A DNA stretch of 20,172 bases from a virus: positions 1-20,172 of IMG/VR virus record IMGVR_UViG_3300011115_000102. One strand, 5' to 3'. Below the pieces are notes generated by a model. The model was not told where the DNA came from. It made no database searches and saw nothing but the letters and a program-made list of their open reading frames with translations. This document shows, in pieces, positions 3 through 16,206 of this stretch (positions within the stretch are counted from its first letter, which is position 1; every line of letters begins with the position of its first letter). The translations under genes were made by a program, and so were the position numbers.

Positions 3-281
3 ATTCACGAAATTAGCGTTTGGATACGCGTAAACGACACAGATGTACCGGGGTCTACTGGTAGGGAATCCATTAGCGCCAAACACGGTGCTTTTGATGG
101 CGGCGGTATTTCAGCTTGGAACTACTTTGTTCAACTTCAAGCCAATGAATATGTGGAGTTATGGTGGTCTACTCCAGATACATCGGCGTTTATTACCTCT
201 TACGTTGCGGGAACCAGCCCAACCCGCCCTGCAACCGCCTCTGTCATAGCCACGCTAACTTTTGTATCGGCGCTACCGTAA
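3..281 (+). CDS. Virion fibre/decoration-like protein, C-terminal 92 residues (5' truncated)
   Basis: Frame 3 is open from the first base to a TAA at 279-281, so this is the end of a gene that starts outside the window. The visible part is rich in alternating hydrophobic and polar residues, with motifs such as NYFVQLQANEYVELWWS and an ending SVIATLTFVSALP. That pattern suits a beta-sandwich (jelly-roll or C1q-like) domain as found at the C-terminal ends of phage fibres and head-decoration proteins. This assignment rests on resemblance only. It lies just upstream of the virion protein at 319 in the same direction, which fits a structural role. A 68-codon ORF in another frame (43-249) covers the same DNA but has no such features. 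Coding status is fairly sure; the exact product is not. Confidence 0.72.
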   Translation: MHEISVWIRVNDTDVPGSTGRESISAKHGAFDGGGISAWNYFVQLQANEYVELWWSTPDTSAFITSYVAGTSPTRPATASVIATLTFVSALP

Positions 282-318
282 TGATATTATTGACAAAACC
301 TACCAAATTGAGGTTCAT

Positions 319-2085
319 ATGGATCAAGTAGCCCCGCAGGGTATGGAATCAACACCGCCGTATCAACTGCCCTATACGCGTCCTTCTGCCCCTGAAGCTG
401 CTTTCGATCCGGCTCTTCTACAGTTTATAGAACAGCAGCGGGTAGCGGCGGAAGCTAAGAAAGTTAGTAGCGATTTAGCGGCGGAAGCCCAAAGAGTTCG
501 TAGTGATGATGGCGGTATGGGTGACAACGGCGGCGGCACAGGTATAGCTAGGGCGACCCAAAAACTAATGGGTACTCCCTCCTCCACAAGCGGTGACGCC
601 CAATCTTTAGCTGGCGGCGGCGTTGCGTATGCCCGTGGGGGTTCTACACCGCGTGGTATAGCTGCTTTAGGTCGTGGCAAGGACACCATGCTTGTCCACA
701 TGACCCCCGGCGAGGTGCGTGGGTTACAACAATTAGCTCTTGCCCATGGTGGCTCCCTCACCATCAACCCCCACACCGGTCTAGTTGAGGCTGGGTTTCT
801 AAGCTCCATGCTTCCGATGTTGGTCGGCGCGGCGCTGACCGCGACGGGTGTTGGCGCACCTATAGCGGCTCTTATGGTAGGTGGGGGGTACGGATTAGCT
901 ACGGGTAGCTTGAAAAAAGGATTGATGGCGGGTCTTGGTGCCTACGGTGGTGCAAACTTAGGTGCGGGCTTAGGTGAGTTGGGCGCAGAGTCGCTGTCTA
1001 CGGAAGCTGCTAGGGATTTTTCAAATACCTTGGGGACGGAAGGGTCAAAAGTAGCAACTGATTTAGGGCAGCAAGCTTATGATACGGCGTTGAAAGAAGT
1101 TAGTTCGGGTAAGATTACCCCAGAGTATTTACAAAATGCTGGTATGACCCCCGAGCGATACGCCCAACAGTTTAGGGAGGCTGCGGAAAATAGTGCCCCG
1201 ATGCCTGATTACACTACTCCTAATCCTAAAGCGGTACCTAAATACGCTGATATGGATATGGCGCAACGAGCGCAGGCTATGCAGAAGGGGTTAGGTTCGG
1301 TTAATCCGTTTAGTGATACTTTCAATAAAACAGCCGCGTCAAGCTTCTTGGATAAGAATAAGTACCAAGTGGCTAGTGCGTTTGCTGGCCCTGCAATGGA
1401 GGCTATGAAACCCCAATCTATGACTCCTATGAAACCCGAACCTGACCAGTATGATCGGGAGTTGGCAAAGTATCATCTGGCCCCCAACTATCAACCCTAT
1501 GTAGCGCCGCGCCCTAACCCTTACTATAGTGCCGTGTATGCGGCTGAAGGTGGGGATGTTTCTCGTATGGCAGGTGGCGGTAAGACTTTATCCCGAAAAC
1601 CAGATATTCCTGATGTTGGTATTATCCCACTGGACGACATCACTACGGCAAGTCTATCCCCGAATGAAGCTGCCCTTATCCGTATGCAAGCAGCGGCTCG
1701 GCGGGCAAACCTGACGCCGTATACTCCTGAGAAAATTGCCATTAAGGGGCTTGGGGATATTGGGCCACCCACATCTATGTTGGCAAATGGTGGCATCGCT
1801 GCGCTACCCAGTGAGTACGCTGCTGGTGGTAAGCTACTCCAAGGGCCGGGGGATGGCATGTCTGACTCTATCCCAGCAGTAATTAAAGGCCCACGTCCGC
1901 AGCGTGCTGCGTTGGCTCAAGGGGAGTTTGTAGTCCCTGCGGATGTGGTTAGTCACTTAGGTAATGGCTCGACTGATGCTGGGGCGAAAAGGCTTTATGC
2001 CATGATGAACAATATCCGCAAGGCAAGAACTGGCACCAAAAAACAGGGCAAGCAGATTAACGCTGCGCACTTTATGCCCGCATGA
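319..2085 (+). CDS. Gly-rich virion structural protein, possible internal/ejection protein
   Basis: This 588-residue protein is most likely part of the particle. I chose ATG 319 because GAGG lies five bases upstream; a TTG at 262 in the same frame would overlap the preceding gene and has no ribosome site. Residues about 160-220 form a Gly/Ala-rich, weakly hydrophobic stretch that could insert in or cross a membrane. Short Gly motifs recur (AEGGDVSRMAGGG, LANGGIAALP, AAGGKLLQ). The C-terminal part has the signature GPGDGMSDSIPA, then GEFVVPADVVSHLGNGSTDA and a basic end with KARTGTKKQGK. I recognise this tail from many uncultured phage virion proteins, but no biochemical role is known to me. 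Its stop overlaps the GNAT start by four bases. An internal virion protein or a tape-measure-like component are both possible. Confidence 0.82.
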   Translation: MDQVAPQGMESTPPYQLPYTRPSAPEAAFDPALLQFIEQQRVAAEAKKVSSDLAAEAQRVRSDDGGMGDNGGGTGIARATQKLMGTPSSTSGDAQSLAGGGVAYARGGSTPRGIAALGRGKDTMLVHMTPGEVRGLQQLALAHGGSLTINPHTGLVEAGFLSSMLPMLVGAALTATGVGAPIAALMVGGGYGLATGSLKKGLMAGLGAYGGANLGAGLGELGAESLSTEAARDFSNTLGTEGSKVATDLGQQAYDTALKEVSSGKITPEYLQNAGMTPERYAQQFREAAENSAPMPDYTTPNPKAVPKYADMDMAQRAQAMQKGLGSVNPFSDTFNKTAASSFLDKNKYQVASAFAGPAMEAMKPQSMTPMKPEPDQYDRELAKYHLAPNYQPYVAPRPNPYYSAVYAAEGGDVSRMAGGGKTLSRKPDIPDVGIIPLDDITTASLSPNEAALIRMQAAARRANLTPYTPEKIAIKGLGDIGPPTSMLANGGIAALPSEYAAGGKLLQGPGDGMSDSIPAVIKGPRPQRAALAQGEFVVPADVVSHLGNGSTDAGAKRLYAMMNNIRKARTGTKKQGKQINAAHFMPA

Positions 2086-2537
2086 CAACTTTAGCGTATG
2101 AGGATACCGACCCCTTCCGCTTTGTGGAGGAGATGAAGCAACTGTTCCCTATACATTATGATGAGCTTTGTGTAACTAAAGACTTTGCGCTAGAACCTGA
2201 CTACGATGCGTACAGACGGTTATGTGATGCGGGTATGTTACGGTGCATTACTTGTAGAGCAGATAGCGAGTTGATCGGATATATAATTTTTGTCGTACAG
2301 CCGCACTTGCATTACAAGTCCTGTAAAACGGCTTTTGAGGATATTTACTTCATAACGAAGGAATACAGAAAAGGTCGCATCGGCATTAAATTGTTTCAGT
2401 ATGCAGAAAAAGTCCTGAAAGATATTGGGGTAAACAGGATCATTATGCACACCAAGATTCATTTAGATAATTCCAGACTATTTGAGTATCTGGGTTATAC
2501 ACTGACGGACAAACTCTTTACGAAATTGCTGGGGTAG
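2082..2537 (+). CDS. GNAT-fold acetyltransferase-like protein in the virion cluster
   Basis: The 151-residue product has the layout of a GNAT N-acetyltransferase: a helical N-terminal part, beta strands around residues 62-73 (ELIGYIIFVV) and 86-92, then an acetyl-CoA loop at residues 95-101 (YRKGRIG) leading into a helix, and a C-terminal SRLFEYLGY segment typical of motif B. The loop lacks the first Gly of the usual R-x-x-G-x-G/A pattern (Arg99 stands there), so catalytic activity is not certain. The start ATG overlaps the upstream stop as ATGA, pointing to translational coupling. GNAT-like proteins sit at this place in several podoviruses; T7 gp13 is a possible positional counterpart, which is inference. 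A substrate cannot be named. It may modify a virion or host protein, or serve in assembly. Confidence 0.8.
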   Translation: MTTLAYEDTDPFRFVEEMKQLFPIHYDELCVTKDFALEPDYDAYRRLCDAGMLRCITCRADSELIGYIIFVVQPHLHYKSCKTAFEDIYFITKEYRKGRIGIKLFQYAEKVLKDIGVNRIIMHTKIHLDNSRLFEYLGYTLTDKLFTKLLG

Positions 2538-2540
2538 AAC

Positions 2541-5072
2541 ATGCGATATAACCATTTTACGATGCTGCCTGAACAGGCATTTAAATCGCTTGGCGGTAGG
2601 ATGACTCTTGAGGGCGGCGGTAGTTCTGCTCCAGCGCAACCTACAACGGCTACCCAGTACAACACCAACATCCCTGAGTACGCTAAGCCCTACGTCACTA
2701 ATATGTTGGGGGCCACTCAACAGCAGTTGTTTGACATGGATGCTGATAAAGGCATAACGGGTTTCAAGCCCTACCAGCCGTATAGCTCCAATGTTAACGA
2801 TTACTTCGCTGGCTTCTCTCCGATGCAGAAGCAAGCACAGCAGGCTACGGCCAATATGCAAGTGCCGGGGCAATATAATACAGCTACGGGTATGGCTGGT
2901 GTAGCCGGTATTGGCAGTTTAAACGCTGGTGGTAACTACAACCGGATGGCGACTGACCCCAGTGCTATGCAAGCGTTTATGTCACCGTACCAACAGAACG
3001 TCACTGACTTCCAGAAACAACAAGCGGTGATGGACTACGGTCGTCAGCTTCCGGGTATGAATGCAGCGGCGTCTAGTAAAGGGGCGTTTGGTGGCAGTCG
3101 TCAAGCCATCGTAGAAAGTGAAGGCCAGCGTAATTTGCAGGACACGTTAGCGGGCATCCAAGCTACAGGTAGCCAGAACGCATTCCAGAACGCCCAGCAA
3201 GCCCAGCAGTTCGGCGCTAACTTAGGTATGCAAGGTTATGGGCAAGCTCTACAAGGGGCTAGCACACTGGCTAACATCGGTGGTCAAGAGTTGGGTGCGC
3301 AACAAAGTATTGCCAATGCCCAGAACACTATGGGCGCACAGCAACAAGCACTAGAGCAGAACAAGATTAACCAAGGCATTCAGAACTACGCCACTCAGCA
3401 GCAATACCCCATGATGCAGTTGGGGATGATGTCTAACATGTTGCGCGGCCTTCCGATGCAGTCCACCACGACCCAGTCTTACCAAGCTGCTCCTACTATG
3501 GCCTCTCAGCTTGTGGGTTCGGCGGGTACGTTGGCGAGTGTGTATCAGGGTATGAATGCTGTACCTAAGAAAGAAGGTGGAGTCATCAGAGGACTAGCTC
3601 ACGGTGGCTCAGTTAATGGTCAGGGCTATGCTGTGGGCGGGGAGATTAAACAACAACTCTCTACGATGTCTGAAGAGCAACTCCAGCAAGTTGTGCGCAC
3701 TTCGGCAAGCAATGAGATTCGCTCAATGGCCGCTGAGATTCTCGCCGGGAAGGAGATGGCTAAAAGGATGACCAGCCAAATGCCTAGCTCTCCCGGAGCA
3801 GGACAAGGTATAGCTGCGGCTAACACCGGGGATATGTTCACCAGTATGGCTGATGGTGGCATCATTGCTTTTGCCGAGGGTTCAGAAAAAGCGGTTGCCC
3901 CGGGGGAAAATTATTACTACAACCCCTTAACTAAACAAAACGAACTGATAGAAGGCAAAACTGAAACGCCCGGAAGCCCAGAAACTCAAGGACTGTTGGC
4001 GGGGCTTCCTCCTGAGAAAAGACCTAACATGCAGCCGGGAGCAGGTGCTTCCATAGAGGACTTCGCTAAGTACTTAGGTGCTATACGCGCTGACGCGGGT
4101 ATTGGTGCGCCTCGTCAAGCTGAGAAAGAGATGCTTGATAAACGTATGGCAGGACGAGGGGCCGAAGAGAGCAGTCAGAACTATTTTAAAGCCGCAGAGT
4201 TCTTCGCTAAAATGGCTAACACACCGGGGGGTCTGCTTCGTAGTGCTACAGCAGCAGGGGCTGAAGTGCTGCCGGAATTTGCCAAGCTCCAAATAGCGCA
4301 GAGACAGGTTCGTGAAACCGATGCCAAGATTCTGGCTGATATTACTGAAGCTGCTCGCCTTGAGAAAGTGGGTCTGTTCGATCAGGCTGCAAAACTACGC
4401 TCTGAAGCTCAAACACTTGACGCCCATAATCAACGCACCAAAGATGAGATTGAAGGGCGTCTGAAAGTAGCAGGCATACAGTCTGATTCTTCGCGGGATG
4501 TGGCAAACATACAGGGGGCTACTTCGCGGGATGTGGCAAACATAGGGGGGGCTACTTCGCGGGATGTGGCAAACATACAGGGGGCTACTTCGCGGGATGT
4601 GGCAAACATAGGGGCGGGTGCGCGGAGTGGTGCGGATAAAAGGGAAGCTGAGGTATTCGAGGCTTACGTCAAAGATATAGCCGCAAGGAACCCCACGTGG
4701 TCAGAGCACAAGGTAATGGTAGAAGCTCACAGCGCACTCCAGTTAGCTAAAGGAGGCGCGGGGGCTAGGATTGAAGCGGCGCAGAATAACAGGGTGAGTA
4801 GCGCATATACTGCGCTGGTAACAAAAGACCTTGTTCTGAGAGGCTTGAAACGTAGGGAGGCTGACGAGAGTGACCCTGATAAAAAGGCAGCACTAAATAA
4901 AGAAATAGAAGCGCGAGACGCGGCTTTATTGCGAAGGGCTAGAAACAGCATCCTCGCCGAAGACGCATCCCCTGCTCCCCCTGCTGCTGCCCCTGCTACC
5001 ACTACTGCCCCTGCCGGGCGAACGGGAGTTGATTCCGGCAATCCTTTGCTAATGCTAAATCCAAACCGATAG
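2541..5072 (+). CDS. Gln/Gly-rich internal virion protein with tandem repeats
   Basis: This is an 843-residue, probably virion-borne protein. Residues about 145-290 are rich in Gln, Ala and Asn and carry a familiar phage pattern (MSPYQQNVTDFQKQQ, KGAFGGSRQAIVE, NLQDTLAGIQATGSQ). It predicts long amphipathic helices. A Gly-rich segment follows (residues about 342-370, EGGVIRGLAHGGS) and another near 435 (MADGGIIAFAEG). Residues about 570-650 are highly charged and likely coiled-coil. They lead into four copies of an 11-residue repeat (SRDVANIQGAT and variants). The C-terminal end is a Pro/Ala linker. The start at 2541 follows the GNAT stop by three bases and has only a weak ribosome site (GGGG), which suits coupling; Met8 or Met21 are alternative starts. 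An ejection or tape-measure-like role is inferred from composition and place. Confidence 0.8.
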   Translation: MRYNHFTMLPEQAFKSLGGRMTLEGGGSSAPAQPTTATQYNTNIPEYAKPYVTNMLGATQQQLFDMDADKGITGFKPYQPYSSNVNDYFAGFSPMQKQAQQATANMQVPGQYNTATGMAGVAGIGSLNAGGNYNRMATDPSAMQAFMSPYQQNVTDFQKQQAVMDYGRQLPGMNAAASSKGAFGGSRQAIVESEGQRNLQDTLAGIQATGSQNAFQNAQQAQQFGANLGMQGYGQALQGASTLANIGGQELGAQQSIANAQNTMGAQQQALEQNKINQGIQNYATQQQYPMMQLGMMSNMLRGLPMQSTTTQSYQAAPTMASQLVGSAGTLASVYQGMNAVPKKEGGVIRGLAHGGSVNGQGYAVGGEIKQQLSTMSEEQLQQVVRTSASNEIRSMAAEILAGKEMAKRMTSQMPSSPGAGQGIAAANTGDMFTSMADGGIIAFAEGSEKAVAPGENYYYNPLTKQNELIEGKTETPGSPETQGLLAGLPPEKRPNMQPGAGASIEDFAKYLGAIRADAGIGAPRQAEKEMLDKRMAGRGAEESSQNYFKAAEFFAKMANTPGGLLRSATAAGAEVLPEFAKLQIAQRQVRETDAKILADITEAARLEKVGLFDQAAKLRSEAQTLDAHNQRTKDEIEGRLKVAGIQSDSSRDVANIQGATSRDVANIGGATSRDVANIQGATSRDVANIGAGARSGADKREAEVFEAYVKDIAARNPTWSEHKVMVEAHSALQLAKGGAGARIEAAQNNRVSSAYTALVTKDLVLRGLKRREADESDPDKKAALNKEIEARDAALLRRARNSILAEDASPAPPAAAPATTTAPAGRTGVDSGNPLLMLNPNR
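4491..4615 (+). repeat. 33-nt in-frame tandem repeat, about 3.8 copies
   Basis: Units begin at 4491, 4524, 4557 and 4590, each starting TCGCGGGATGTGGCAAACAT. Units 1 and 3 are identical. Unit 2 differs only where CAG becomes GGG, and unit 4 diverges at its end. The copies encode SRDVANIQGAT / SRDVANIGGAT in alternation, so the true period may be 66 nt. Because the period is a multiple of three, copy-number change keeps the reading frame. Near-identity at the DNA level suggests recent duplication. Confidence 0.95.
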
Positions 5073-5079
5073 GTTTCCC

Positions 5080-8000
5080 ATGCCATCGCTTGCTGAGATT
5101 TTTAACGATCCCAACTATACTGGGGCAAACGCTGCCACCAAACAGGCTATCTTTGATAGGTATTCAGGGCAGGATGAAAATTACACCAGCGCAAACGATC
5201 CGACTAAACAAGCAATCCGTGAGCGTTTTGGGCTAGTACAACCTTCACCTCAAGGGGCGGCACCCCAACCCACTGCCCCTGCTCCGGGGCCGCTTAACCA
5301 ACCGCCAATAGTGCCCGAGGAAACCGGTGCGGCGTTTGGTAATCGTAACCTTATGGCGCAGGGTGAAAAAGCACGTGCAACCGCTGCGGCGAACGCCGCA
5401 CGTGAGCCTGAAAAACTTGGGTATCTTGCGGCGTCTACCAAAGCAGGCGCACTTAATTTAGTGGGGTCAGCGGCTAAATTAGTAGACGCGCTCAATCCTT
5501 TTACTACTAGCGAAGCAGAACTTGCGACTCTGTATAAGAACGAACCAGAGAAGTTAGCTAAGTTACAGGCGGAAGGAGCGAATACATTTCTACAACGCTT
5601 TGGCCGCGCCATGCAGCAGGGTAGCGAAAACGTGATGGAAGACATCGCACCGGGGGATAAAGAAAAATATGGGAAATTAAAATACGCCACTATAGACCCA
5701 GATAAGGCGGCGTATCTTTCGCCGGTAAAAGTTGTTGGCGATGTTCTTTCATCGCTACCGACAACATTAGCTTTGGGTGTTTCATTATACTTAACCAAAG
5801 GTGCCGCCGCTCGTGTTGAAGCACAAGCCTTGGCGGAAGGACTTACGCCAGAAGCTGCTCGCCGTTTAGGGGTTAACGCGGCTGTTGATACGATGGCTAA
5901 GGTTGGAGCCGGTTCTGAAGGAACAATAGGATACGCCCAAGCAGCATTGCAAACCCGCGAGGAAGCTGACAAGATAACAAAAAAAGCAATCGAGGCATCC
6001 CCAGAATATAAAAAACTGATTGCGGACGGGTTTTCACCTGAGACTGCTCGTATTCGTGTGTCGGCGTTAGCCGCTGAAACTTCTGGTGTAGTGGCGGGTG
6101 CAGCCGATGCGGTACTCAATTTTTTCGGGGGTAAAGTTCTTGGCAAAGTAATTAGTGAAGGTGGAAGCTTACTCAAACGTACTGGTAAAGGCTTTTTAAC
6201 GGAAGCCGCTGTTGAAGCGCCGCAAAGTGGAGCCGAACAAGCCGCACAAAATATAGCGGTTAAACAATTTTTAGATAGTAAAAAAGAAGAGTTAGACGGG
6301 GTAGCAGAAGCAATAGCGCAAGGTTTTTTTGTAGGTGGTGTATCTGGAGGTGGATTCGCCGCAGTATTAGGCAGGGGCGAAGGTTCAGAACAAGCTCCTG
6401 TTCCTCCTGCTGCACCCGCCCCAGTTGCTGGTAGCCCAGAACAACGCGCTGCCTTAATTGCTGGCTATCGAACAGACCTTGGTTTGCCGTTGGATGTGGC
6501 TACCGCTATGGCAGATCAGCAGCTTGCCGCCGCCCAACCCCCTGCCCCTGCTGCAACTACCGCGACTACTGCTCCTCCTGCTGCTACTGATATACCTGCT
6601 GGTGTTGATCCCCAGCGAGTTGCAGATATAGAGGCGGATTTATTTAACAATGGCGTTGAACCTGCCGCAGCAAGAATCGGTGCAATTAACCAAGCTGCGC
6701 AAGAGGCAAAAGACGACGCCGAAGCCAACGCCGCTGCTACTCAACAGGAGGCATCCAATGCAACAGTATCTACAGATGCAGGAGTTGGAACTGACCCAAG
6801 TGGAGGAGGCGTTGCGGCGGCTCTACAACAACAACCCGGAGCATCTACCGAGGGAGCTACTGATGCTCAGTCGGGAGGAGTGGATGGCTCTCAGTCAGTT
6901 GTTACACAATCTGCTACAGGAGAAGGCGCACAGCCGGGTGCATTAGAAGAGGCACGCCCCCAACAAACTGTTGAGGAAATACTGGCGGGGGTTAGGCGCA
7001 CTCAGTTGGGTGCATTAGTCCCCCGTCAAGCCGCAGTAAGTTTTGATGGACGCAAGGGTATAGTATTTAATGAAGCAGTGCTAGGTGGGTTACGGCGGGT
7101 AGTTGCCGATGATGATGTGGCATTAGATAACCCTTCCCGTGTTGGCGCAGTTATGCTCACGGGTATAGATCGTCAAGCTGGCGGTAGTGCGGGTAGAGCA
7201 TCAGAAGTACTTACGGCCCTTACTACTTGGGCTGACATTAGTAACGAGCGCATCGTTCTGTCTCCCGCTGCAAGTGGAGATTTAAAGCAGTCTGAGTTGG
7301 TGAAGTGGTACGAGCGTAATGGATTTACGACTACCCCTGATGGGTTGATGGAACGTAACCCTTCCACTACAAAAACTATCACACCAGCAGCGCCCACACC
7401 GGCTAAGCCAATCACGCCTACGAGCTTTGCGGTTAAGGAAGTACCTGCTGCGGAATCTCCAACAGGTAAACGCGCATGGAACGTAACCGGCCCCGATGGG
7501 GAGATACTCGGCACCTTTGATAAGAAGGGTGACGCCACCGCGCAAGCTAAACAAGCTAGAGCCGCAGCTAGAACAGCAGCAGGCCAGCAACCGGCAGGGC
7601 GCAAAGCTACGCTAACCCCAGAACAGAGAGCAGCCGCCACCGGCCAACGTGCTGTTACTCAGAAGGCCAGCATAGACGCTACGCGCACTGCGGAGAAACT
7701 TTTAACCAACATAGGCACTGAATACACCCCCAACCCCGAGTCCACGCAGGAAGAAGCGGGGGTAGAGAAGCAAGCTCACGATGAACGGCGAGTGGCTATT
7801 GTTGTTGCTGCGTTAAATATAGCCAACGACCCCGCACATAGACTTAACACTGCTGGGCAGATAGCAAAACAAGTGTTGGCGCATCCAAGTGTTACCCAAC
7901 GGGAACGCGCCCGTGCTGCTAATGCACTGCGCGAAGCGCGAGGTGAGAAGCCCATCGTCATGGATGAGGCTGCACTTGCTAAGATATTCCCGGCACAGCA

Positions 8001-11000
8001 AGCTGCAAGTGAAAAACCACAATCCTCTGGTATCCCTCTGGGGGTTACTAGCCAAAACTCTAACCCCAAATATACTACATTCAAAAATGCTGGGCAGGCG
8101 CTATCGTGGGTGTCTCGTAACGGCACGAAGTTTGAAAAGTTTTTAGCCAAGCGCCTATATTACTTTGCGCGTAAAGCCCAGATTGTAATAGCTAGCGATA
8201 TGAACGCCCTTCCTGAAGCCGTGCGTAAGGAGTTTGAAACAGGATCGGCGGGGGTTTATTTTAAAAATGTTATATATCTGCATCCTGTCTACGGCATTAA
8301 CAATACGGTGTTTTTGCACGAAGCCCTGCATGGTGCAACGATTGCCAAAATTACCGAGTACCTTACCCGCGTAAAAAACGGAGAATCCATACCGCCAGCT
8401 ATGCAAGCTGCTTACCTCGCTTTAGAAACCGTGCGTCTGAGGGCTTCTGATCGGTACTTCCTGTTGAAAAAAGAGGGGTTGCTTGATAAGCGTATGCTGG
8501 TGTTTGAGAAAGGGGGTGCGTTTAGCGACCTAAAAGAGTTCATTGCCTACGGCCTGTCCAGTGAGGACATGCACGAGTTTCTGTTGCAAACCTCTGGCAT
8601 GCTTGGTGGTAAGACCGCTAACTACTTTAACAACCTGCTATCTAATTTTGTTAAGGGTATTCGCGGCATATTTAACATGGGCGATACCCATCAGTCGGCC
8701 CTGCAAGACCTTATACTTGCTACGGATAATTTGCTATCCACTAGGATGCGGGTAAGAAAAACCGCCACCGCGCCCCCATCATCGGCGCTGCCACCATCTA
8801 CGCCCGCTAAAAAGCTTAAGCAAAAAGTAGCCAAAGTTAGCAAAGCTATGGCACAGGTTCAGGCTTCCTCTAACGCGCAGGATGTAGTGAACGGCGTATC
8901 CACGGGTATGGCGGGGCGTATGGCTGAAGATTGGCTCCCACTGCTTAAGGATAACTACGCTGCATTTAACGTGGGCACCACACAGCAGGTTTTATATAAG
9001 CTGCCAACCTCCGACATTATCCGTTGGAAGGGCGATGAGGTGCCCGGACTGAAGCGTGTTGATACGCTAGTACAACGTATGGCGGCTATGCGGGGCAGCA
9101 TGCAGTTAGCTGGAGCTAAGAAAGCTACGGAACTTGCTAAGTTTGTACGCAAAAACGGCCAGAAGGTACTTGGTGAGGCTAGACACTTGGCGCGTTTGCA
9201 CGAAGTAAGCCCTACTAAATATGCCAACCGTGCTGATGCGTTAGCAAATGACCCCGACATAAAAGAAAACGCGGCTAAGAGTGTTGACCCTCAGTACAGC
9301 GCCACCCAACAACGCGCATACAAAGGGGAAGTAACTAAACGTACACGTGCCATCAACGAAGTGTTCACCGCTTGGGAGGCTTTGGGTAAGCAATCCGGTG
9401 GGCATTCGATGTACAAGATGCTTCGCCAGTTTTATGTTGACGGCTATAACCTGACTCGTACTCTGCTTAATACCCAGATTCAAGCACTACCCATAGACGC
9501 GGCGGCAAAAGCCAAGCTGATGAAATCAGTCCGCTTAATGCAAGAGCAGAGTGAAGCAATAGTAGATACCGCTGGTAAAAAACAAAACGCCCTGCCGGAA
9601 GAGTACACCCCGTTCATGCGTTATGGTGAGAACTGGCTGCGCGTAACCGCAAAGGGAGGTGGCCCTGCTGGTCGTGCATTCTATACGTTTGAAAGCGGTG
9701 CTGATCGCAATAAGTTTCAAAGGCAAGAGGCCGCTAGGTTAGGTAAAGACCCTGAAGATGCGAGCGTATTTAGTAAAGGTTCGGATTTAACTTCGTTGCG
9801 CAAAGATTTTGCCAACGAAAGCGTCATGTTAAAGGAGATGTTTTCGGCTATTGATAAGGCAACTACCTCCAGCACAATTAGTAGCGCAACCGATGTAGAT
9901 GCGTTTAAAGAAGGCTTAAAAGATCAGCTATACCAAGTCTACCTATTGACGCTACCAGAACGGAGCCTGCGTAAACAATTCCTTAACGCTAAGAACATAA
10001 CGGGTTTTAGTGCGGATATATTTCGTAACTTCAAAACTTCGGCTACTAAACTAGCTAACCAAGCCTCCAAGCTGCGTTACGCTACGGAGATACAGAACGA
10101 GGTCATAGCCGCAAGGGAGAGCTTAGCCGGTAGACCACCTTCAGAGGTGGAGAAGCTGTCTCTGTTTGTCAATGAGATAGCATACAGAGCTAATGAGGAA
10201 CTCAATCCTACCCCGCGTAGTAAGCTTGCGGCGGCGGCAAGTCAGTTTGCTTTTGTAACTATTCTGACCGGTGCGGCATCGGCAATGGTGCAGTTTGCCA
10301 GCATCCCTGTAATGGTTATGCCTAGGTTAAACAGGGACTACGGGTACGGAAAATCAGCGGCGAAGTTTGCCCGCTATATGCCTATATGGGACACGATAGG
10401 TGTGACCACGACGGAACCCAATGGGGATGTAGTCTACTCTGCACCCTCTATTGGCACTTCCAAAATGGTTACATCCAACCCGGTGTTGCAACGGGCTTTT
10501 GAGGAAGCTGTTAATCGACAAGTAACAACAGTTGGTAGTGTGTCGATAATCGCAAACAACAAACAGACACCTGAGAATACGCGGAAGAGTGCTGTTGGTG
10601 CCGCCGCTGAAAGTGCGTATGGGTTAGTAACAGGGTTATTCAGTGGGGCGGAACGCCTAACCCGTGAGATGACTTATATGATGGCGTTTGAACTTGAATA
10701 CGCCAAGACAAAAGACTTCGATGCTTCCGTGGAGAAGGCTATAGAAATTACGCAAGATACACTTTTCCGATACGACACCATGGAAAGACCCCGCATATTA
10801 CGCACCGGGTTAGGAGGTGCTATTGGGCAATTCAAAATGTATGCAGCGGGGATGACTAGCTTTTTTATACGTGGTATGTATAACTCCATGCGGATATTAA
10901 ACCCCAAGGAGGCTCTGTCAGCCGTACACCTTTTGGGTGGCGTTTTGTTAACTGGGGCTGTGTTCCACGGACTTGCTGGTTCTCCCTTCTACAGCACGAT

Positions 11001-11889
11001 AACTACCCTGATAGATTTGATACTGAACTCCGGTGACGAGGACGAAGAGAAAAAGAAACGCAGGCAGAAGAACCCCCTTACGGCGCAAAGCTCTGACTTA
11101 CGGTTCCGGTATGAGTTTCTGCCTGAACAGTTTGGGGAAATTAAGATGCCCGGTATAGATGGTAAAGAATATAAGTTAAGCACGGTACTTGAAAAAGGGC
11201 TGGTGTCAGTTCTTACGGATGTCAATGTAGGCTCCCGTACCTCGTTCAATAACATGTGGTTTCGTTCAGCCCCAGAAGGTAAGGATTGGAAGGAAACCGC
11301 TTTTAATATTGCGGAAGCAAACTTGGGGCCGTCCGTATCTGCGGGGGGTAACTTTATTTCTGGGGTTGAAGACGTATGGGACGGAAAAATACGCCGTGGG
11401 CTGGAGAAGATGGTTCCCGCATTCTTCAAAGGCAGTATCGTTGCTAGTAGGTACGCTGATGAAGGTGCGCAAACACGCAACCGCGACGTTATACTAAAAG
11501 CTAACGAGCTAAGTGGGCTTAACTTGGCCGCGCAAGTGCTTGGGTTTACTCCTACGCGCCTAGCTCAAATACAGGAGTTCAATTACGGCATCAAGGAAGT
11601 CGAGGTTAAAGCGTTGCGGGAAAAGAACGACCTGCTTAAAGACCTTAAAGACCTTGAGAATAATCCTGATAGAAATCCTGAATCCCGCAAAAAACTAGAC
11701 CGTAGGATCGACCAGCACAATCGTAGATACAACTATATGGAAGGGTTTATCATTGACGAAGATACCCGCGAACGCTCGTTAGAAGCCTACGATACGCGCA
11801 AAGAAAACACCATCCGTGGCAAGCTTACAACGGAGGAAACAGACTACCCCATACGCAAGATGCAGCAGAATATTGGGATTGGGCGATAA
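5080..11889 (+). CDS. Giant polyvalent virion protein with metallopeptidase-like and GNAT-like domains
   Basis: The 2269-residue product starts at ATG 5080, with AGG six bases upstream inside the previous stop region. Two helical repeats open it (residues about 10-52: ANAATKQAIFDRY and ANDPTKQAIRERF), followed by a Pro-rich linker. A helical region has a hydrophobic stretch near 217-240. An Ala/Pro/Gln linker covers about 440-640. Residues about 650-762 resemble a GNAT fold (SAGRASEVLTALTTWAD, WYERNGF). Residues about 1040-1220 hold a zinc-peptidase motif HEALH (His1080, Glu1081, His1084), with Glu1153 in LKEFIAYGL as a plausible third ligand. Hydrophobic segments lie near 1720-1750 and 1946-1983. 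The C-terminal third, with DTLFRYDTMERPR (from about 1892) and LVPAFFKGS, resembles domains of large polyvalent phage proteins (DarB-like). It is the last + strand gene; a role in DNA ejection or injection is inferred. Confidence 0.85.
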   Translation: MPSLAEIFNDPNYTGANAATKQAIFDRYSGQDENYTSANDPTKQAIRERFGLVQPSPQGAAPQPTAPAPGPLNQPPIVPEETGAAFGNRNLMAQGEKARATAAANAAREPEKLGYLAASTKAGALNLVGSAAKLVDALNPFTTSEAELATLYKNEPEKLAKLQAEGANTFLQRFGRAMQQGSENVMEDIAPGDKEKYGKLKYATIDPDKAAYLSPVKVVGDVLSSLPTTLALGVSLYLTKGAAARVEAQALAEGLTPEAARRLGVNAAVDTMAKVGAGSEGTIGYAQAALQTREEADKITKKAIEASPEYKKLIADGFSPETARIRVSALAAETSGVVAGAADAVLNFFGGKVLGKVISEGGSLLKRTGKGFLTEAAVEAPQSGAEQAAQNIAVKQFLDSKKEELDGVAEAIAQGFFVGGVSGGGFAAVLGRGEGSEQAPVPPAAPAPVAGSPEQRAALIAGYRTDLGLPLDVATAMADQQLAAAQPPAPAATTATTAPPAATDIPAGVDPQRVADIEADLFNNGVEPAAARIGAINQAAQEAKDDAEANAAATQQEASNATVSTDAGVGTDPSGGGVAAALQQQPGASTEGATDAQSGGVDGSQSVVTQSATGEGAQPGALEEARPQQTVEEILAGVRRTQLGALVPRQAAVSFDGRKGIVFNEAVLGGLRRVVADDDVALDNPSRVGAVMLTGIDRQAGGSAGRASEVLTALTTWADISNERIVLSPAASGDLKQSELVKWYERNGFTTTPDGLMERNPSTTKTITPAAPTPAKPITPTSFAVKEVPAAESPTGKRAWNVTGPDGEILGTFDKKGDATAQAKQARAAARTAAGQQPAGRKATLTPEQRAAATGQRAVTQKASIDATRTAEKLLTNIGTEYTPNPESTQEEAGVEKQAHDERRVAIVVAALNIANDPAHRLNTAGQIAKQVLAHPSVTQRERARAANALREARGEKPIVMDEAALAKIFPAQQAASEKPQSSGIPLGVTSQNSNPKYTTFKNAGQALSWVSRNGTKFEKFLAKRLYYFARKAQIVIASDMNALPEAVRKEFETGSAGVYFKNVIYLHPVYGINNTVFLHEALHGATIAKITEYLTRVKNGESIPPAMQAAYLALETVRLRASDRYFLLKKEGLLDKRMLVFEKGGAFSDLKEFIAYGLSSEDMHEFLLQTSGMLGGKTANYFNNLLSNFVKGIRGIFNMGDTHQSALQDLILATDNLLSTRMRVRKTATAPPSSALPPSTPAKKLKQKVAKVSKAMAQVQASSNAQDVVNGVSTGMAGRMAEDWLPLLKDNYAAFNVGTTQQVLYKLPTSDIIRWKGDEVPGLKRVDTLVQRMAAMRGSMQLAGAKKATELAKFVRKNGQKVLGEARHLARLHEVSPTKYANRADALANDPDIKENAAKSVDPQYSATQQRAYKGEVTKRTRAINEVFTAWEALGKQSGGHSMYKMLRQFYVDGYNLTRTLLNTQIQALPIDAAAKAKLMKSVRLMQEQSEAIVDTAGKKQNALPEEYTPFMRYGENWLRVTAKGGGPAGRAFYTFESGADRNKFQRQEAARLGKDPEDASVFSKGSDLTSLRKDFANESVMLKEMFSAIDKATTSSTISSATDVDAFKEGLKDQLYQVYLLTLPERSLRKQFLNAKNITGFSADIFRNFKTSATKLANQASKLRYATEIQNEVIAARESLAGRPPSEVEKLSLFVNEIAYRANEELNPTPRSKLAAAASQFAFVTILTGAASAMVQFASIPVMVMPRLNRDYGYGKSAAKFARYMPIWDTIGVTTTEPNGDVVYSAPSIGTSKMVTSNPVLQRAFEEAVNRQVTTVGSVSIIANNKQTPENTRKSAVGAAAESAYGLVTGLFSGAERLTREMTYMMAFELEYAKTKDFDASVEKAIEITQDTLFRYDTMERPRILRTGLGGAIGQFKMYAAGMTSFFIRGMYNSMRILNPKEALSAVHLLGGVLLTGAVFHGLAGSPFYSTITTLIDLILNSGDEDEEKKKRRQKNPLTAQSSDLRFRYEFLPEQFGEIKMPGIDGKEYKLSTVLEKGLVSVLTDVNVGSRTSFNNMWFRSAPEGKDWKETAFNIAEANLGPSVSAGGNFISGVEDVWDGKIRRGLEKMVPAFFKGSIVASRYADEGAQTRNRDVILKANELSGLNLAAQVLGFTPTRLAQIQEFNYGIKEVEVKALREKNDLLKDLKDLENNPDRNPESRKKLDRRIDQHNRRYNYMEGFIIDEDTRERSLEAYDTRKENTIRGKLTTEETDYPIRKMQQNIGIGR

Positions 11890-11912
11890 AAAACCCCCGC
11901 ACTAGGCGGGGG
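11888..11912 (-). terminator. Rho-independent terminator of the - strand operon
   Basis: A perfect 7-bp stem (CCCCCGC at 11894-11900 and GCGGGGG at 11906-11912) closes a 5-nt loop. Read on the - strand it is followed by six T residues (complement of A at 11888-11893), the standard intrinsic-terminator layout. There is no T-tract on the + side, so it should stop leftward transcripts only. It lies 45 nt past the stop of the last leftward gene, and its U-tract overlaps the TAA of the giant + strand gene. Confidence 0.88.
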
Positions 11913-11956
11913 CGAACTAAGGAGTAAGGAGCAAACTTACTGGAAGGTAGTTTAGG

Positions 11957-12151
11957 TTATAGCCGCCAGATTCGCAAACCCTTGATGCTATCTTCTATAC
12001 TTATTTTAATCAGGACTTCTAGCTTCAGCCTTTTTGTAACTAGCAGCACCACCTGCTTAGCCCTGACGCAATCAATACAGGGTATAAAAAAGGAATACCC
12101 CGCCCTTAGCGAACGCCAGTTGATATTATAACTAACCCCCTCTATCAGCAC
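11957..12151 (-). CDS. Small conserved-looking phage protein, 64 aa, function unknown
   Basis: This ORF runs from a GTG at 12151 to a TAA at 11957 and overlaps the end of the primase gene by 20 bases in another frame. The product has a patterned sequence: NINWRSLRAGYSFFIPCIDC, then an amphipathic helix (RAKQVVLLVTKRLKLEV) and a strand-rich end (EDSIKGLRIWRL). The mix of aromatic, basic and hydrophobic residues suggests a compact alpha/beta fold, and it resembles small proteins I have seen in phage genomes. No function is known to me. Its place before a clear terminator makes it the last gene of the leftward operon. The ribosome site at the GTG is weak; re-initiation after primase translation would explain expression. 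Confidence 0.62.
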   Translation of the reverse strand: MLIEGVSYNINWRSLRAGYSFFIPCIDCVRAKQVVLLVTKRLKLEVLIKISIEDSIKGLRIWRL

Positions 12152-14972
12152 TATCGCCGCCCGTTGGCAACAGACCGTTTATGTCTATGAAGTCGCTGTT
12201 AGAGCAGTCAAACGCCAAGGCGTAGACCCCCGGCGTGTTCATCTTCATACCCTTGGACATACGCTTGACCCCTGCACCTATAAACACGCCCTTGAGCTTT
12301 AGTTGCTTCAACACATCCTTGTAGTGAATCTGGGACTCAACGCAGTCCTTACGAAACTCCGTGGAGGACAGAAATAGCTTGTTAGTATCAGGCTCAAACC
12401 TAATGAGTAGTGGGCCTCGCGGCTCTAGTAGGGGTAGCACTTGCATCTTGGTGCGGTTATCCCCCTCGTCATTAACCACCAGCATGTTTTGAATGTGCCG
12501 GTTGACGTAGCCACCGATTACCCCCGACACCTCGCTTACTGGCGGGGTAACGTCCTCCCTTATATCCTTAAGCATCTCCATGGTAGCCCACCTATAGATA
12601 GCCTTCATATCGTAGTCGATAAGGTTAAGGTTCCGTGCGATAAGCCCACCCGTTATATTGCACGCAAGGATGGAAGACCAGAACCGTTCTCTGTTGGTTA
12701 GGCGCATCTCCTTATCTATCTTAGCTTGCACAGCGAGAAGCCCGCTTACAGATTCTTCCAGATTCCCTAGTAGGTGGCTGCAATATATGTCGCCTGCGAT
12801 ACCGTAGTTCTCTAAAAGCTGGTGGTCGAACATGCGCTTTGCTTCGGCGGGGGCAATAATATCGGTGGGGTGAATTTGATACTCGACTAGCCGCATTAAC
12901 TCACCATCAGGGCTGCTCTTGTGTATCCCCAACTTCTCGTAGAAGCTAGCGTTAGAACTTGCTAGAGATAGAGTTTTCCATGTTGTGTTGTTCAGTCGCA
13001 GTTCGTTGGTCTGGGACTTAGCACGGTTTGGGCCGCGACCTTGAGACATACTATACGCCAAGGTAGAGAAGTCCTGTGCCTCTGTGTTGGTGATCTCGTC
13101 TACGGTAAAAGGTAGGTTGTTCATCACGCCCAAGTGAATCATCCGTGCGGCTAGGGTGTCCTTCCAGATAGCTGCCAACTTAGTTGGATGCCCATACACG
13201 CTGTTACAGACGTATAGAATCGTTGACTTGCCCGTGCCTGAGGTCTTGTGTATCAGGTTTATGATCGCCCCATTCTGCCCCGTATACTTCAGCAGGGGTG
13301 CGCCAAATGCTGTGAGGGCGGCAAAGGCGTGGGCTTCCAAACCCGGTTTGTTGTACATGTTAAACACTTCTTTCCACTTCTCTAGTGTCCCTTTGGGGGT
13401 CATATCAGCGGCAAACTGTGCGGTGACACTGGACGGGGGGCTATGAAACGTACCGTCCTTTGTGATTTCTCTATTGCCTATAACAAATTTACTATCGTTT
13501 TCTGTCCATCCGAATTGGGTTCTCATTATTTCTGCCCTAACTTTGTATTGGAGTTCCTTGACAAATATCATTATGAACGTCGTCAACTCGCTCATCTGAT
13601 ACGGTAGCCCTGCTACACCCTTACGCGCTAACGCCGTTCGTAGGCTTTCCTTAACCGCAACAACCGCTAGCGGCACAGTAAACTCAATCACTTCTTCCTT
13701 AGGTAGATGCAAACGAATAAGAGCTAACTCCCCCTCCTCAGGGTCGCGCATACGCTTGACGACATAAATATCATGCTCGTATACGCATATCGGCTCCGCT
13801 TCCTCATCCGATTTAGCTGGCATCTTATATACCCCGCCGTTCTTACCCCGAAAGTATGGGGATGGGTACGGAGGTATGATGTAGCTACCGTCTTTCTCCA
13901 GCGTGGAGGCATCCTTTTCTTGCACCTCAGGGCGTATAACTTCCCTGCCTAAAGATAGCGGAGTCTTTATGCGCCCCTTCCACGGGCATCCTTCACAGCC
14001 ACCGGGGTTGTGCTTCTCAAAGGTGGTGCAGTGATGCGCCCCGCTAGTCGTGCTGGCCTTGCTCTCTGTTTCGTCGTAACTGTAGTCGGGGTATTTCTCG
14101 GATATCTTATGTATCGCAGTCTTGCGGTCAACGCAGAGGTGGGCAACAGACAACGCATCCCACCATAGGGGTTCGTTGATTGTCTCTTGGTTCTGGTATA
14201 CGTATAGAAGCTGAGCGCAGCCCTCATAGTTAGCACTCTTACGCATGATACGACTGAAGCTTAACGTGGTATTACTTAGTAGGGACTTAGCTAACTCGCT
14301 AAGCTCTCTATGCGGCGCATCCAGTTTGGATACTACTTCTTTAACACCAAGTGAATCCCTAAACGTAGCGTATTCAATATCCACGCAGTCGCTAATAACT
14401 TCTACCGAAGATGGGGGTTCATCCTTAAAGTTTAAAGTGCCCGGAATACGCAGCACTCTAGCTACTTCAAATACGCTGGTGTCTACATAGAGGTTATGGA
14501 TAACACAAAGCTCGTTAAAACGATTGGCTACAGGCTCCCATTCCTCGCGGGTGATGGGCGTAGTTAAAGGCCAATAGGCATGAATCCCCCTGCCAGAGTT
14601 AACAAGCAGCGGGCGTGGTAAACCTATTAGGGCGCAGAATTTCTGCAACTCCCCGAGTGCGGTGGGTTGGTCTACATACCCATCGGGTCTACCGGTGCTA
14701 TCGTTTATGACCGCTTTGGATACACCGCAGTCTATATCCAACCAGAAACACTTAATGCTCTGGACGTTTTCTTTCTTGCGGCTCTCGTTGGTCTTGTATT
14801 TAGCGCACCCAAAAAACACGTTTCGTTTCTGGGCTACAAACTCCTCGGCGGCTGTGTCAACTTCCTTACGAGTAGCTACAAGAACCTGCTTTACGCTCTT
14901 CCCCCTTATGCCTACCACAGCGAACCAGCCATCAACGGCTTGAACTCTGTCTAATAGATCAATGCTCGGCAT
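12132..14972 (-). CDS. Fused archaeo-eukaryotic-type primase and helicase/ATPase
   Basis: The 946-residue protein probably primes and unwinds DNA at the phage fork. The N-terminal AEP (primase-polymerase) domain shows FWLDIDCG with Asp79 and Asp81 as metal ligands, SGRGIHAYWPL with His131 as the nucleotide-binding motif, and ARVLRIPGTLNFK around 171-183. A middle segment has His314, Cys315, Cys326 and Cys329 (GGCEGCPWKG), a likely zinc or Fe-S site as in primase C-terminal modules. The C-terminal ATPase has Walker A SGTGKST (Lys582) and Walker B FTVDE (Asp625, Glu626), close to DUF927/D5-type helicases. ATG 14972 has an AAGAGA-type ribosome site. It lies downstream of the HTH gene, separated by a palindrome and a hairpin. 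Together the domains stand in for separate DnaG and DnaB proteins. Polymerase activity is possible but not shown. Confidence 0.9.
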   Translation of the reverse strand: MPSIDLLDRVQAVDGWFAVVGIRGKSVKQVLVATRKEVDTAAEEFVAQKRNVFFGCAKYKTNESRKKENVQSIKCFWLDIDCGVSKAVINDSTGRPDGYVDQPTALGELQKFCALIGLPRPLLVNSGRGIHAYWPLTTPITREEWEPVANRFNELCVIHNLYVDTSVFEVARVLRIPGTLNFKDEPPSSVEVISDCVDIEYATFRDSLGVKEVVSKLDAPHRELSELAKSLLSNTTLSFSRIMRKSANYEGCAQLLYVYQNQETINEPLWWDALSVAHLCVDRKTAIHKISEKYPDYSYDETESKASTTSGAHHCTTFEKHNPGGCEGCPWKGRIKTPLSLGREVIRPEVQEKDASTLEKDGSYIIPPYPSPYFRGKNGGVYKMPAKSDEEAEPICVYEHDIYVVKRMRDPEEGELALIRLHLPKEEVIEFTVPLAVVAVKESLRTALARKGVAGLPYQMSELTTFIMIFVKELQYKVRAEIMRTQFGWTENDSKFVIGNREITKDGTFHSPPSSVTAQFAADMTPKGTLEKWKEVFNMYNKPGLEAHAFAALTAFGAPLLKYTGQNGAIINLIHKTSGTGKSTILYVCNSVYGHPTKLAAIWKDTLAARMIHLGVMNNLPFTVDEITNTEAQDFSTLAYSMSQGRGPNRAKSQTNELRLNNTTWKTLSLASSNASFYEKLGIHKSSPDGELMRLVEYQIHPTDIIAPAEAKRMFDHQLLENYGIAGDIYCSHLLGNLEESVSGLLAVQAKIDKEMRLTNRERFWSSILACNITGGLIARNLNLIDYDMKAIYRWATMEMLKDIREDVTPPVSEVSGVIGGYVNRHIQNMLVVNDEGDNRTKMQVLPLLEPRGPLLIRFEPDTNKLFLSSTEFRKDCVESQIHYKDVLKQLKLKGVFIGAGVKRMSKGMKMNTPGVYALAFDCSNSDFIDINGLLPTGGDSADRGG

Positions 14973-14990
14973 GCTATTCTCTTTGCGAAA

Positions 14991-15017
14991 GTAAAGGGGG
15001 GACTAATCCCCCCTTAC
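14991..15017 (-). promoter_or_regulatory. G6/C6 intercistronic hairpin before the primase-helicase gene
   Basis: Six G (14996-15001) pair with six C (15008-15013) around the loop ACTAAT. Flanking GTAA(A)/TTAC extends the stem with one bulged A. In the leftward transcript it lies between the HTH stop and the primase start and is followed only by TTTAC, so it is a weak terminator at best. It could act as an attenuator, an RNA-processing site or a stabilising hairpin. Confidence 0.6.
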
Positions 15018-15025
15018 CTAGTGGT

Positions 15026-15042
15026 GCTAATAGAGTATTAGC
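15026..15042. promoter_or_regulatory. Perfect 7-bp palindrome, candidate operator for the HTH protein
   Basis: GCTAATA (15026-15032) and TATTAGC (15036-15042) are exact inverted copies separated by three bases. It overlaps the stop codon of the adjacent HTH gene and precedes the primase gene. A short symmetric site beside a small DNA-binding gene is a classical operator arrangement. The link to that protein is inference. Confidence 0.5.
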
Positions 15043-15265
15043 TAAGTTTTTTTATGTACGAAACTACCGCCCCAACATGCTGTTTTGGGTCATAAGTGCC
15101 AATGAACCAGTTATAGACAGTCTGTTTGCTGACGTTAAGTTTCTCTGCCACCTCGCTAGCGGGGATATCCAACGCAATGCACAACCTGCCAAGCAAAACA
15201 CCAGTACGGCGTTTATTGGCTTGTTTGTTAAGCTTGACAATATTTGCGCTGTATCCGTAGCTCAT
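15038..15265 (-). CDS. Small helix-turn-helix DNA-binding protein
   Basis: This 75-residue protein carries a helix-turn-helix at about residues 34-54 (PASEVAEKLNVSKQTVYNWF), of the XRE or resolvase-like class, flanked by basic residues. The ATG follows the upstream stop by two bases. Its ribosome site GAGGAG is made of the last codons of the ssDNA-binding gene, so the two are translated together. A likely job is to regulate the replication operon, perhaps through the palindrome at its own 3' end. A small size and a single domain argue against a recombinase. It could instead bind the origin or assist the primase. The partner and the target site are not visible. Confidence 0.8.
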   Translation of the reverse strand: MSYGYSANIVKLNKQANKRRTGVLLGRLCIALDIPASEVAEKLNVSKQTVYNWFIGTYDPKQHVGAVVSYIKKLS

Positions 15266-15267
15266 GG

Positions 15268-16206
15268 TTACTCCTCACTCCAAGCGGATACAACATCGGC
15301 CAAGTTTTTCTTGGGCGGGGCGGCATCGGGTTCCACTTTCTTGGACGCACGTTTAACGGGTTCTGCCGGTGCCGGTTCGTCTGTATCCTCAGCAGCAAAC
15401 TGCGGGCTTTTAGGTTTGGCCTTCTGAACTACGGGGGCCGGTTCCTGTTTTGCCTCTGCTACTGCTGCGGGAAGCTTCTTCACCCCATCAACTGCTGCTG
15501 CGGTGAGTTGCACAAACCGCTTAGCCTCAACAGACTTCTGTGCCGTTTCAACCAGATCAAGTTCCTCGTCGGTCAAGTGCCGCACAGCGGTAAACTTCAG
15601 CACGTCTCCGGTTTCGTTTTCATCGAACCGCATCTCAGTAACTACATGGTCGATGCTCTCACCGTTGGCGGGAAGGAAGTTCTTGTAGCTTTCAAACGGG
15701 TGCGTATTGCCCACGCCCTTACCGAACAGGGACTTCGACGGGATGTTGAATTGATACAGATGCCCAGTGGTGTCACCTTCAAGCAGTATGGCTACACGAC
15801 GCATGAAACGGCATGCACGGCCTTTACCGTTCTGACCTGAGCCATCAATGTTCTGAGGGCAGGTAGCGCAGTTGGCCGATTGAGCGTTAGCTACATTGCT
15901 CTCCGGTGCCGTGCCAAGGTTAGACCAGCAATCCGGCAGCGTGGCTTCCCCATCGGGGTCGTAGGGTTTGCTGTAGAACTGCCGTGATACTTTAGGCAAC
16001 GCGTTGACAACTATGACATTGATGAAACCATCCCGCACCTTACCGGCTTCCTTGCCGTTAATCATACGGCGGAAGATGCCCTTGTTCATAGCGATACGAC
16101 TGCCACCCCCACTGGAATCAACGAGGGACTTGGATAACGCGCTAACCTCGCGGGCGCGTGAGGGTGCTACGGAAGTGGACTGTTGGAAAATGCTAAGGTT
16201 GCTCAT
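15268..16206 (-). CDS. Putative single-stranded DNA-binding protein with Cys4 site
   Basis: The 312-residue product has a folded N-terminal part of about 225 residues, a Lys/Ala/Pro-rich tail, and an acidic tip with an aromatic residue (VVSAWSEE). That tail layout is typical of phage and bacterial SSBs that recruit partners through the C-terminus. Four cysteines (93, 113, 116, 132; context DCWSN, CATC, GRACRF) look like a zinc site. Conserved-looking stretches FNIPSKSLFGKG and VVTEMRFD follow. I recognise this type from phage replication modules, where it is usually called ssDNA-binding by context; no OB-fold can be proven by eye. AAGGAG lies six bases from the ATG, and the start overlaps the upstream stop as ATGA. 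Neighbours (helicase, nucleases, primase) support the role. Confidence 0.72.
   Translation of the reverse strand: MSNLSIFQQSTSVAPSRAREVSALSKSLVDSSGGGSRIAMNKGIFRRMINGKEAGKVRDGFINVIVVNALPKVSRQFYSKPYDPDGEATLPDCWSNLGTAPESNVANAQSANCATCPQNIDGSGQNGKGRACRFMRRVAILLEGDTTGHLYQFNIPSKSLFGKGVGNTHPFESYKNFLPANGESIDHVVTEMRFDENETGDVLKFTAVRHLTDEELDLVETAQKSVEAKRFVQLTAAAVDGVKKLPAAVAEAKQEPAPVVQKAKPKSPQFAAEDTDEPAPAEPVKRASKKVEPDAAPPKKNLADVVSAWSEE

Follow-up and report, generated by a model that had tools for sequence, protein, structure and literature searches.

Zincin metallopeptidases are the commonest domain of the large "polyvalent" proteins of phages, with the virion RNA polymerase (vRNAP) of coliphage N4 as a leading example (Iyer et al. 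2017, PMC5512222). Residues 2124-2375 of N4 vRNAP form its C1 domain, which carries a conserved HExxH, and its N-terminal domain has predicted membrane helices (residues 224-278) and enters nanodiscs (PMC12633501). The tetrameric ejection protein (TEP) of phage PhiM1 has been described as endolysin/exotransglycosidase-like over residues 268-528 (PMC11440229). Here, we describe a 2269-residue protein encoded on a 20,172-base stretch of viral DNA (hereafter the window), which is the entire IMG/VR virus record IMGVR_UViG_3300011115_000102 and is probably a fragment. The protein is a zincin-bearing "polyvalent" ejection protein, of which the domain and the class are known and the specific chain is new; we hold with high confidence that a zincin-type domain is present in an ejection or polyvalent protein here. 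One such domain links groups that were described separately (N4 vRNAP C1, the phiKMV and PhiM1 tetrameric ejection proteins, and the PLxRFG giants), every domain-bearing relative examined retains its active site, and a zincin-type motif turns up at roughly the same position also where the family differs.

Like the metallopeptidase-bearing polyvalent proteins of Iyer et al. (2017, PMC5512222), the window protein is a large phage protein with disparate domains and a zincin, encoded beside virion genes: a single chain holds the zincin, an LPD39-like region, a PLxRFG core and a weakly supported GNAT-like module, and its gene adjoins, among virion (late) genes, a DNA ejection protein gene (phrog_4287). 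The chain is not described in that set, and its zincin matches no Pfam family. Coliphage N4 gp50 (PDB 9pnt/9pnr), a large ejected multi-domain protein, shares with it the C1 zincin fold (HELVH at 2228, distal EFMAWGL) and a similar N-terminal region; N4 gp50 matches four vRNAP Pfam families, whereas the window protein matches none and has no T7-like RNA polymerase domain, and its PLxRFG C-terminus is not detectably N4 C2. The phiKMV gp37 and PhiM1 TEP (8vb2) proteins have the same zincin by profile, with HEXXH and distal Glu, and their genes, too, come last in an ejection cassette and are its largest, but the proteins are 1263-1337 residues long, with no PLxRFG domain detected and no evident cargo. 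The PLxRFG or "DarB-like" giants (Parlo, Pavtok, ZX1 and douglas 12A4) share the C-terminal core, the LPD39 region and an upstream HEXXH or HEXXXH; compared with them, the window chain is shorter, has no SLT (transglycosylase) domain and no DarB-type methylase-helicase dyad among its Pfam domains, and carries its own GNAT-like module. No prophage relatives were found in species genomes with the single pattern tried, and the paper on Sulfitobacter phage PhiGT1 does not mention peptidases.

Predicted zincin fold and active site

A first-pass annotation of the window, made from the sequence, had proposed a gluzincin-type site in this protein, comprising His1080-Glu1081-x-x-His1084 and, further along, Glu1153 in EFIAYGL. 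The motif reads H1080-E-A-L-H1084, and E1153, in KEFIAYGL, is the presumed third zinc ligand. H1080, E1081, H1084 and E1153 are invariant in 26 of 26 aligned sequences, at identities down to 18-22%. The first search for relatives used the pattern NNTxFLHE among others, with a possible bias toward the motif, and an independent set was retrieved by the C-terminal region alone and clustered at 90% identity. HE..H and the distal Glu are present in all 47 domain-bearing clusters of this second set, with none degenerate, so the conservation is not merely an effect of the search pattern. Thus the proposed site is borne out, and an HEXXH lost among homologues, which the annotation had named as evidence against it, is not what either set contains. 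Against the closest relative (L001), the ratio of nonsynonymous to synonymous substitution rates (dN/dS) is 0.27 for residues 976-1230, and the domain is under purifying selection.

An HEXXH arising by chance in a helical region, with no peptidase fold around it, might be considered, the motif being short and much of the protein helical. Shuffles of the same composition give only 0.007 HEXXH per protein, however, and together with conservation, fold and homology this effectively refutes a chance origin, to which we give negligible weight. A mainly structural or regulatory zincin, serving in the scaffold for packaging and ejection or in protein contact, as N4 C1 does with the polymerase, with proteolysis of lesser weight, would accord with the report that the region with the N4 domain is necessary for encapsidation (PMC5512222). 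Under a purely structural role, some loss of catalytic residues should be tolerated, but all four persist in each of the 47 clusters as well as in the proteins of phiKMV, PhiM1 and N4, and we regard this explanation as improbable.

An AlphaFold2 model built from the 26-sequence alignment has block predicted local distance difference test (pLDDT) values of at least 90 over model residues 21-200 (window residues 995-1174). In model numbering, the elements run helix, strand, hairpin, HEXXH helix (101-125) and Glu helix (177-186), the last being the next conserved helix after the HEXXH and bearing the distal Glu; this is the zincin core order of N-terminal helix, small beta sheet, HEXXH helix and Glu helix. 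The predicted fold and element order thus fit a zincin, as the first-pass annotation had expected, in which the two His and the Glu may meet at a zinc ion. The top solved-structure match (VIA-align) is anthrax lethal factor (Z 7.7, root-mean-square deviation 4.3, 153 residues aligned), followed by N4 vRNAP residues 2124-2349 (Z 7.6, deviation 4.6, 174 aligned), PPEP-2 (Z 6.0) and PPEP-3 (Z 5.9), and the leading rows are zincins almost throughout. Lethal factor and the PPEP endopeptidases, the best cellular fold matches, also have HEXXH and a distal Glu, but at only 9-12% sequence identity they have the fold class in common and family membership is not implied. Matches in a viral structure library include "large polyvalent protein" chains, phiKMV-type internal core proteins and a vRNAP.

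Sequence-profile searches matched the domain to PDB 9sfn_G (E=1.7e-18), whose length and sequence mark it as a close relative of phiKMV gp37, to phrog_2206 (virion RNA polymerase, 2029-2250; E=1.8e-9) and to the PhiM1 ejection protein 8vb2 (E=1.3e-3). Both 8vb2 and 9sfn are absent from the structural lists though matching by sequence, which is not a sign that their folds differ. With E-values up to 10 allowed, the window domain has no match among curated Pfam metallopeptidase models, and Tox-MPTase4 matches 3 of the 26 relatives (best E=0.074).

Position of the motif among PLxRFG proteins

The place of the motif was surveyed in 56 PLxRFG clusters in which 550 residues or more precede the PLxRFG domain. 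The same zincin is present in 46 of these, and 9 of the remaining 10 have a different HEXXH or HEXXXH, the latter a variant zincin motif (Iyer et al. 2017, PMC5512222), 392-736 residues upstream; these other-family motifs were identified by HEXXH or HEXXXH alone, not by a distal Glu. One or other motif therefore lies about 350-740 residues upstream of PLxRFG in 55 of 56 clusters, the sole exception being L128, with a median HEXXH-to-PLxRFG distance of 421 residues (range 350-735), and the same is true of seven out of seven named PLxRFG phages (372-521 residues). Either motif occurs in the region in 0.9% of shuffled regions. Since a zincin-type motif is kept there while the family differs, peptidase activity at a fixed place in the chain may be what selection holds. 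The PLxRFG proteins L073, L115, L122 and L123 (and L084 and L107) have an upstream HEXXXH of the HEALGH type, not HEXXH; one zincin family has apparently been displaced by another at the same place in the HEXXXH proteins. The fixed place of the zincin and the link to the phiKMV-type proteins, which we did not find stated in the open-access literature searched, are modest additions to what is known.

Proposed function

Homology to the N4, phiKMV and PhiM1 ejection proteins and the ejection genes next to it make the 2269-residue protein a candidate ejection-type protein, that is, an internal virion protein that probably travels in the head and leaves it together with the DNA; both its virion location and its delivery into the host are by analogy with these systems. 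"Virion-sized" and "polyprotein-like", as the first-pass annotation called it, are likewise interpretations. Its chain would be laid out as an N4 vRNAP-like N-terminus, variable cargo (here GNAT-like), the zincin, and an LPD39-like and PLxRFG core. After passing through the tail, the chain may refold before the zincin acts; H1080, H1084 and E1153 would hold a zinc ion in the predicted domain, E1081 would activate water, and catalysis would be proteolytic. We propose a specific endoproteolytic cut, most likely in the protein's own chain or a co-ejected partner, that would separate the N-terminal cargo and the core close to where the variable part gives way to the constant one.

Processing is suggested by the position of the domain, close to the point where variable cargo meets constant core, and by the recurrence of HEXXH or HEXXXH at a similar place in nearly all clusters and all named phages despite differing families. 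Autoprocessing has been proposed for such zincin domains (Iyer et al. 2017, PMC5512222). Zincin identity and a processing mechanism, taken broadly and jointly, have in our judgement a little less than an even chance of being correct, and that the chief task of the domain is to process its own chain or a partner once ejected is a somewhat more tentative proposal. Several points weigh against it. N4 vRNAP, with the same domain, is reported to be packaged unprocessed (PMC5512222), by which virion maturation, one of three roles suggested by the first-pass annotation, is also disfavoured. The phiKMV gp37 protein keeps the domain though far shorter (1337 residues) and without evident cargo, and therefore cargo release cannot be the sole role. 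Cleavage, zinc binding and activity are predictions from sequence and model. All VIA-align Z values are below 8, modest taken alone, and Foldseek alone against the PDB is weak (best row lethal factor, E=0.76); the modest Z values are offset by leading rows that are nearly all zincins and by agreement with independent sequence evidence. No S74 chaperone-peptidase was found in the window. A Pro-rich, PPEP-like self-cleavage site after the domain was considered and rejected, as PP dipeptides are not conserved among relatives.

In the main rival to self- or partner-processing, the zincin would be delivered as an effector and, early in infection, cleave a single specific host protein with a part in defence, transcription or the envelope; lethal-factor-like and PPEP endopeptidases are comparably selective for targets of their own. 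The fold is nearest to highly specific endopeptidases, the protein is of a type thought to be injected, and such a role is among the options listed by Iyer et al. (PMC5512222). On the other hand, the domain has a near-constant place in the chain and travels with the C-terminal core, not with the variable cargo, which is less expected of one effector among many; we consider a host target possible, though somewhat less likely than processing. Whether read as self-processing or as host cleavage, these observations raise the concrete question of a phage ejection protein that cuts itself or a host protein after delivery.

Transglycosylase question and endolysin label

The peptidase had also been suggested to take the place of the cell-wall transglycosylase of other ejection proteins; in that role it would cut peptidoglycan peptide cross-links. 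Pfam searches of the window protein and of 11 related records found no SLT domain, as this suggestion would have it, and the SLTs of Parlo and Pavtok have no match in 80 relatives. Serratia phage Parlo, however, carries SLT (44-150) and this zincin (1088-1324) in one chain, as the ejection protein of Limnohabitans phage YIMV22061 carries SLT (16-118) and an HEXXH at 609, and in phiKMV the lysozyme is on gp36, adjoining the zincin-bearing gp37. A single chain can thus have an SLT and a zincin at separate sites, and the peptidase does not stand in for the transglycosylase; the window clade is without a detectable SLT, yet positional replacement is not supported. In addition, the solved structures matched are endopeptidases that act on proteins. 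The well-known metallopeptidases of peptidoglycan rely on different motifs. Cleavage of cell-wall peptides is therefore the least favoured of the three roles suggested earlier, and we regard it as very improbable. The YIMV22061 protein (L041:4201-8931, 1576 residues), annotated as a "hypothetical protein", is a T7 gp16-like ejection protein that joins an N-terminal SLT to this zincin.

The region of PhiM1 TEP described as endolysin/exotransglycosidase-like contains the HEXXH domain (matched at 379-514); searches with PhiM1 TEP gave no Pfam family and no match to the SLTs of Parlo and Pavtok. Records of phiKMV-type proteins carry a similar "endolysin domain" label, and the endolysin-labelled regions of PhiM1 TEP (L130:2198-5989) and phiKMV gp37 (L040:3759-7772) hold an HEXXH zincin and no recognisable SLT. 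The absence of a Pfam match is weak evidence alone, as phiKMV gp36, with a described lysozyme domain, also has none. The "endolysin/exotransglycosidase-like" label on these ejection proteins is probably a mislabel and merits re-examination. A broader proposal is that a catalytically intact zincin is a near-obligate, position-fixed part of PLxRFG proteins, with related domains in the ejection proteins of podophages of the phiKMV and N4 types, and a general ejectosome protease acting after delivery, partly hidden under an "endolysin/transglycosylase" label; this seems to us conceivable but doubtful.

Gene, chain and neighbourhood

Coordinates of the features are given in Table 1. The 2269-residue protein is, as first described, encoded by one open reading frame and has exactly one HEXXH.

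Table 1. Features of the window on and around the gene for the 2269-residue protein.
Feature	Position	Strand	Basis
Neighbour gene, 607 aa, possibly a further virion/ejection protein	262..2085	+	position only
GNAT acetyltransferase gene, 151 aa, within ejection cassette	2082..2537	+	PF00583, 35.6 bits, above cut-off
Neighbour gene, 843 aa, DNA ejection protein-like	2541..5072	+	phrog_4287, E=4.1e-12
PLxRFG/polyvalent-type ejection protein, 2269 aa	5080..11889	+	ATG start, no internal stop; NF032893, 278 bits; phrog_10089, phrog_2206
N-terminal region, residues ~254-440, like N4 vRNAP N-terminal domain 272-455	5839..6399	+	phmmer
GNAT-like variable module, residues ~646-765	7015..7374	+	54-58% identity to L004; weak GNAT support via L035
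Zincin metallopeptidase domain, residues ~990-1230	8047..8769	+	alignment, AlphaFold2 model, structural and profile matches
HEXXH motif, H1080-E-A-L-H1084	8317..8331	+	sequence, conservation
E1153, presumed third zinc ligand, in KEFIAYGL	8536..8538	+	invariant in 26 aligned sequences, 47/47 clusters
LPD39-like region, residues ~1290-1507	8947..9600	+	relatives match LPD39; region profile matches other PLxRFG proteins
PLxRFG C-terminal domain, residues 1508-2250	9601..11829	+	NF032893, E=1.3e-82

Among relatives, the chain is constant over its core (~835-2253) and varies in its N-terminal half, with the zincin near the border of the two. The N-terminal region also resembles the matching parts of Parlo, ZX1, Pavtok and Stean (phmmer, with E-values from a small sequence set), and phrog_2206 also matches residues 181-565. 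The GNAT-like stretch is 54-58% identical to L004 while the remainder is about 24% identical, so it looks like a product of module exchange. The GNAT-like domain claimed earlier has no Pfam match of its own; it is weakly indicated by the relative L035, whose Acetyltransf_7 match (E=0.001) does not reach the curated threshold, and the clear GNAT is the separate upstream gene. No match to the module was found in the phage records searched. In L002 (open reading frame 6639-15749), which is 60% identical over the core, about 790 extra residues lie between window residues 986 and 990; the insert (protein residues ~968-1756) contains a second HEXXH, of sequence HELGH, together with an HSP90/HATPase-like domain whose PF13589 match (E=2.3e-4) falls short of the cut-off, and may be an ATPase module inside an ejection protein, just before the zincin.

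Pfam LPD39 lies between zincin and PLxRFG in the aligned relatives, and the window protein itself has no direct Pfam match to it. NF032893 scores 278.4 bits against a curated cut-off of 100, and phrog_10089 ("DarB-like") is matched only at its C-terminal end (3953-4621 of 4647), confirming the earlier "DarB-like" C-terminal region as a PLxRFG domain. The hydrophobic segments noted earlier correspond to five 19-residue stretches of at least 1.3 on the Kyte-Doolittle scale. A structure model of residues 1250-2269 has a mean pLDDT of 75, with no informative solved-structure match and no PDB sequence match for this part of the chain, and N4 C2 and the phiKMV gp37 C-terminus gave no credible match to hidden Markov models of the middle and C-terminal regions.

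Upstream of the gene, the order is the 607-residue gene (without a family match in Pfam and PHROG searches), the GNAT gene and the DNA ejection protein gene. A similar cassette order is found in the 66.7-kb phage of L015, where the cassette adjoins a gene for a virion structural protein. That cassette also includes a GNAT-type gene, as does the region upstream of Parlo's giant gene, and a radical SAM protein gene (L039:3677-5107, minus strand) is among the late genes of L015's phage. In the window, the gene at 16203-16616 (minus strand) carries the PHROG 13900 name "minor head protein" and sits among recombination and replication genes; in Pfam it is weakly Mu Gam-like or Pam3 gp33-like, and its product seems likelier to be a Gam-like DNA end-binding protein than a minor head protein.
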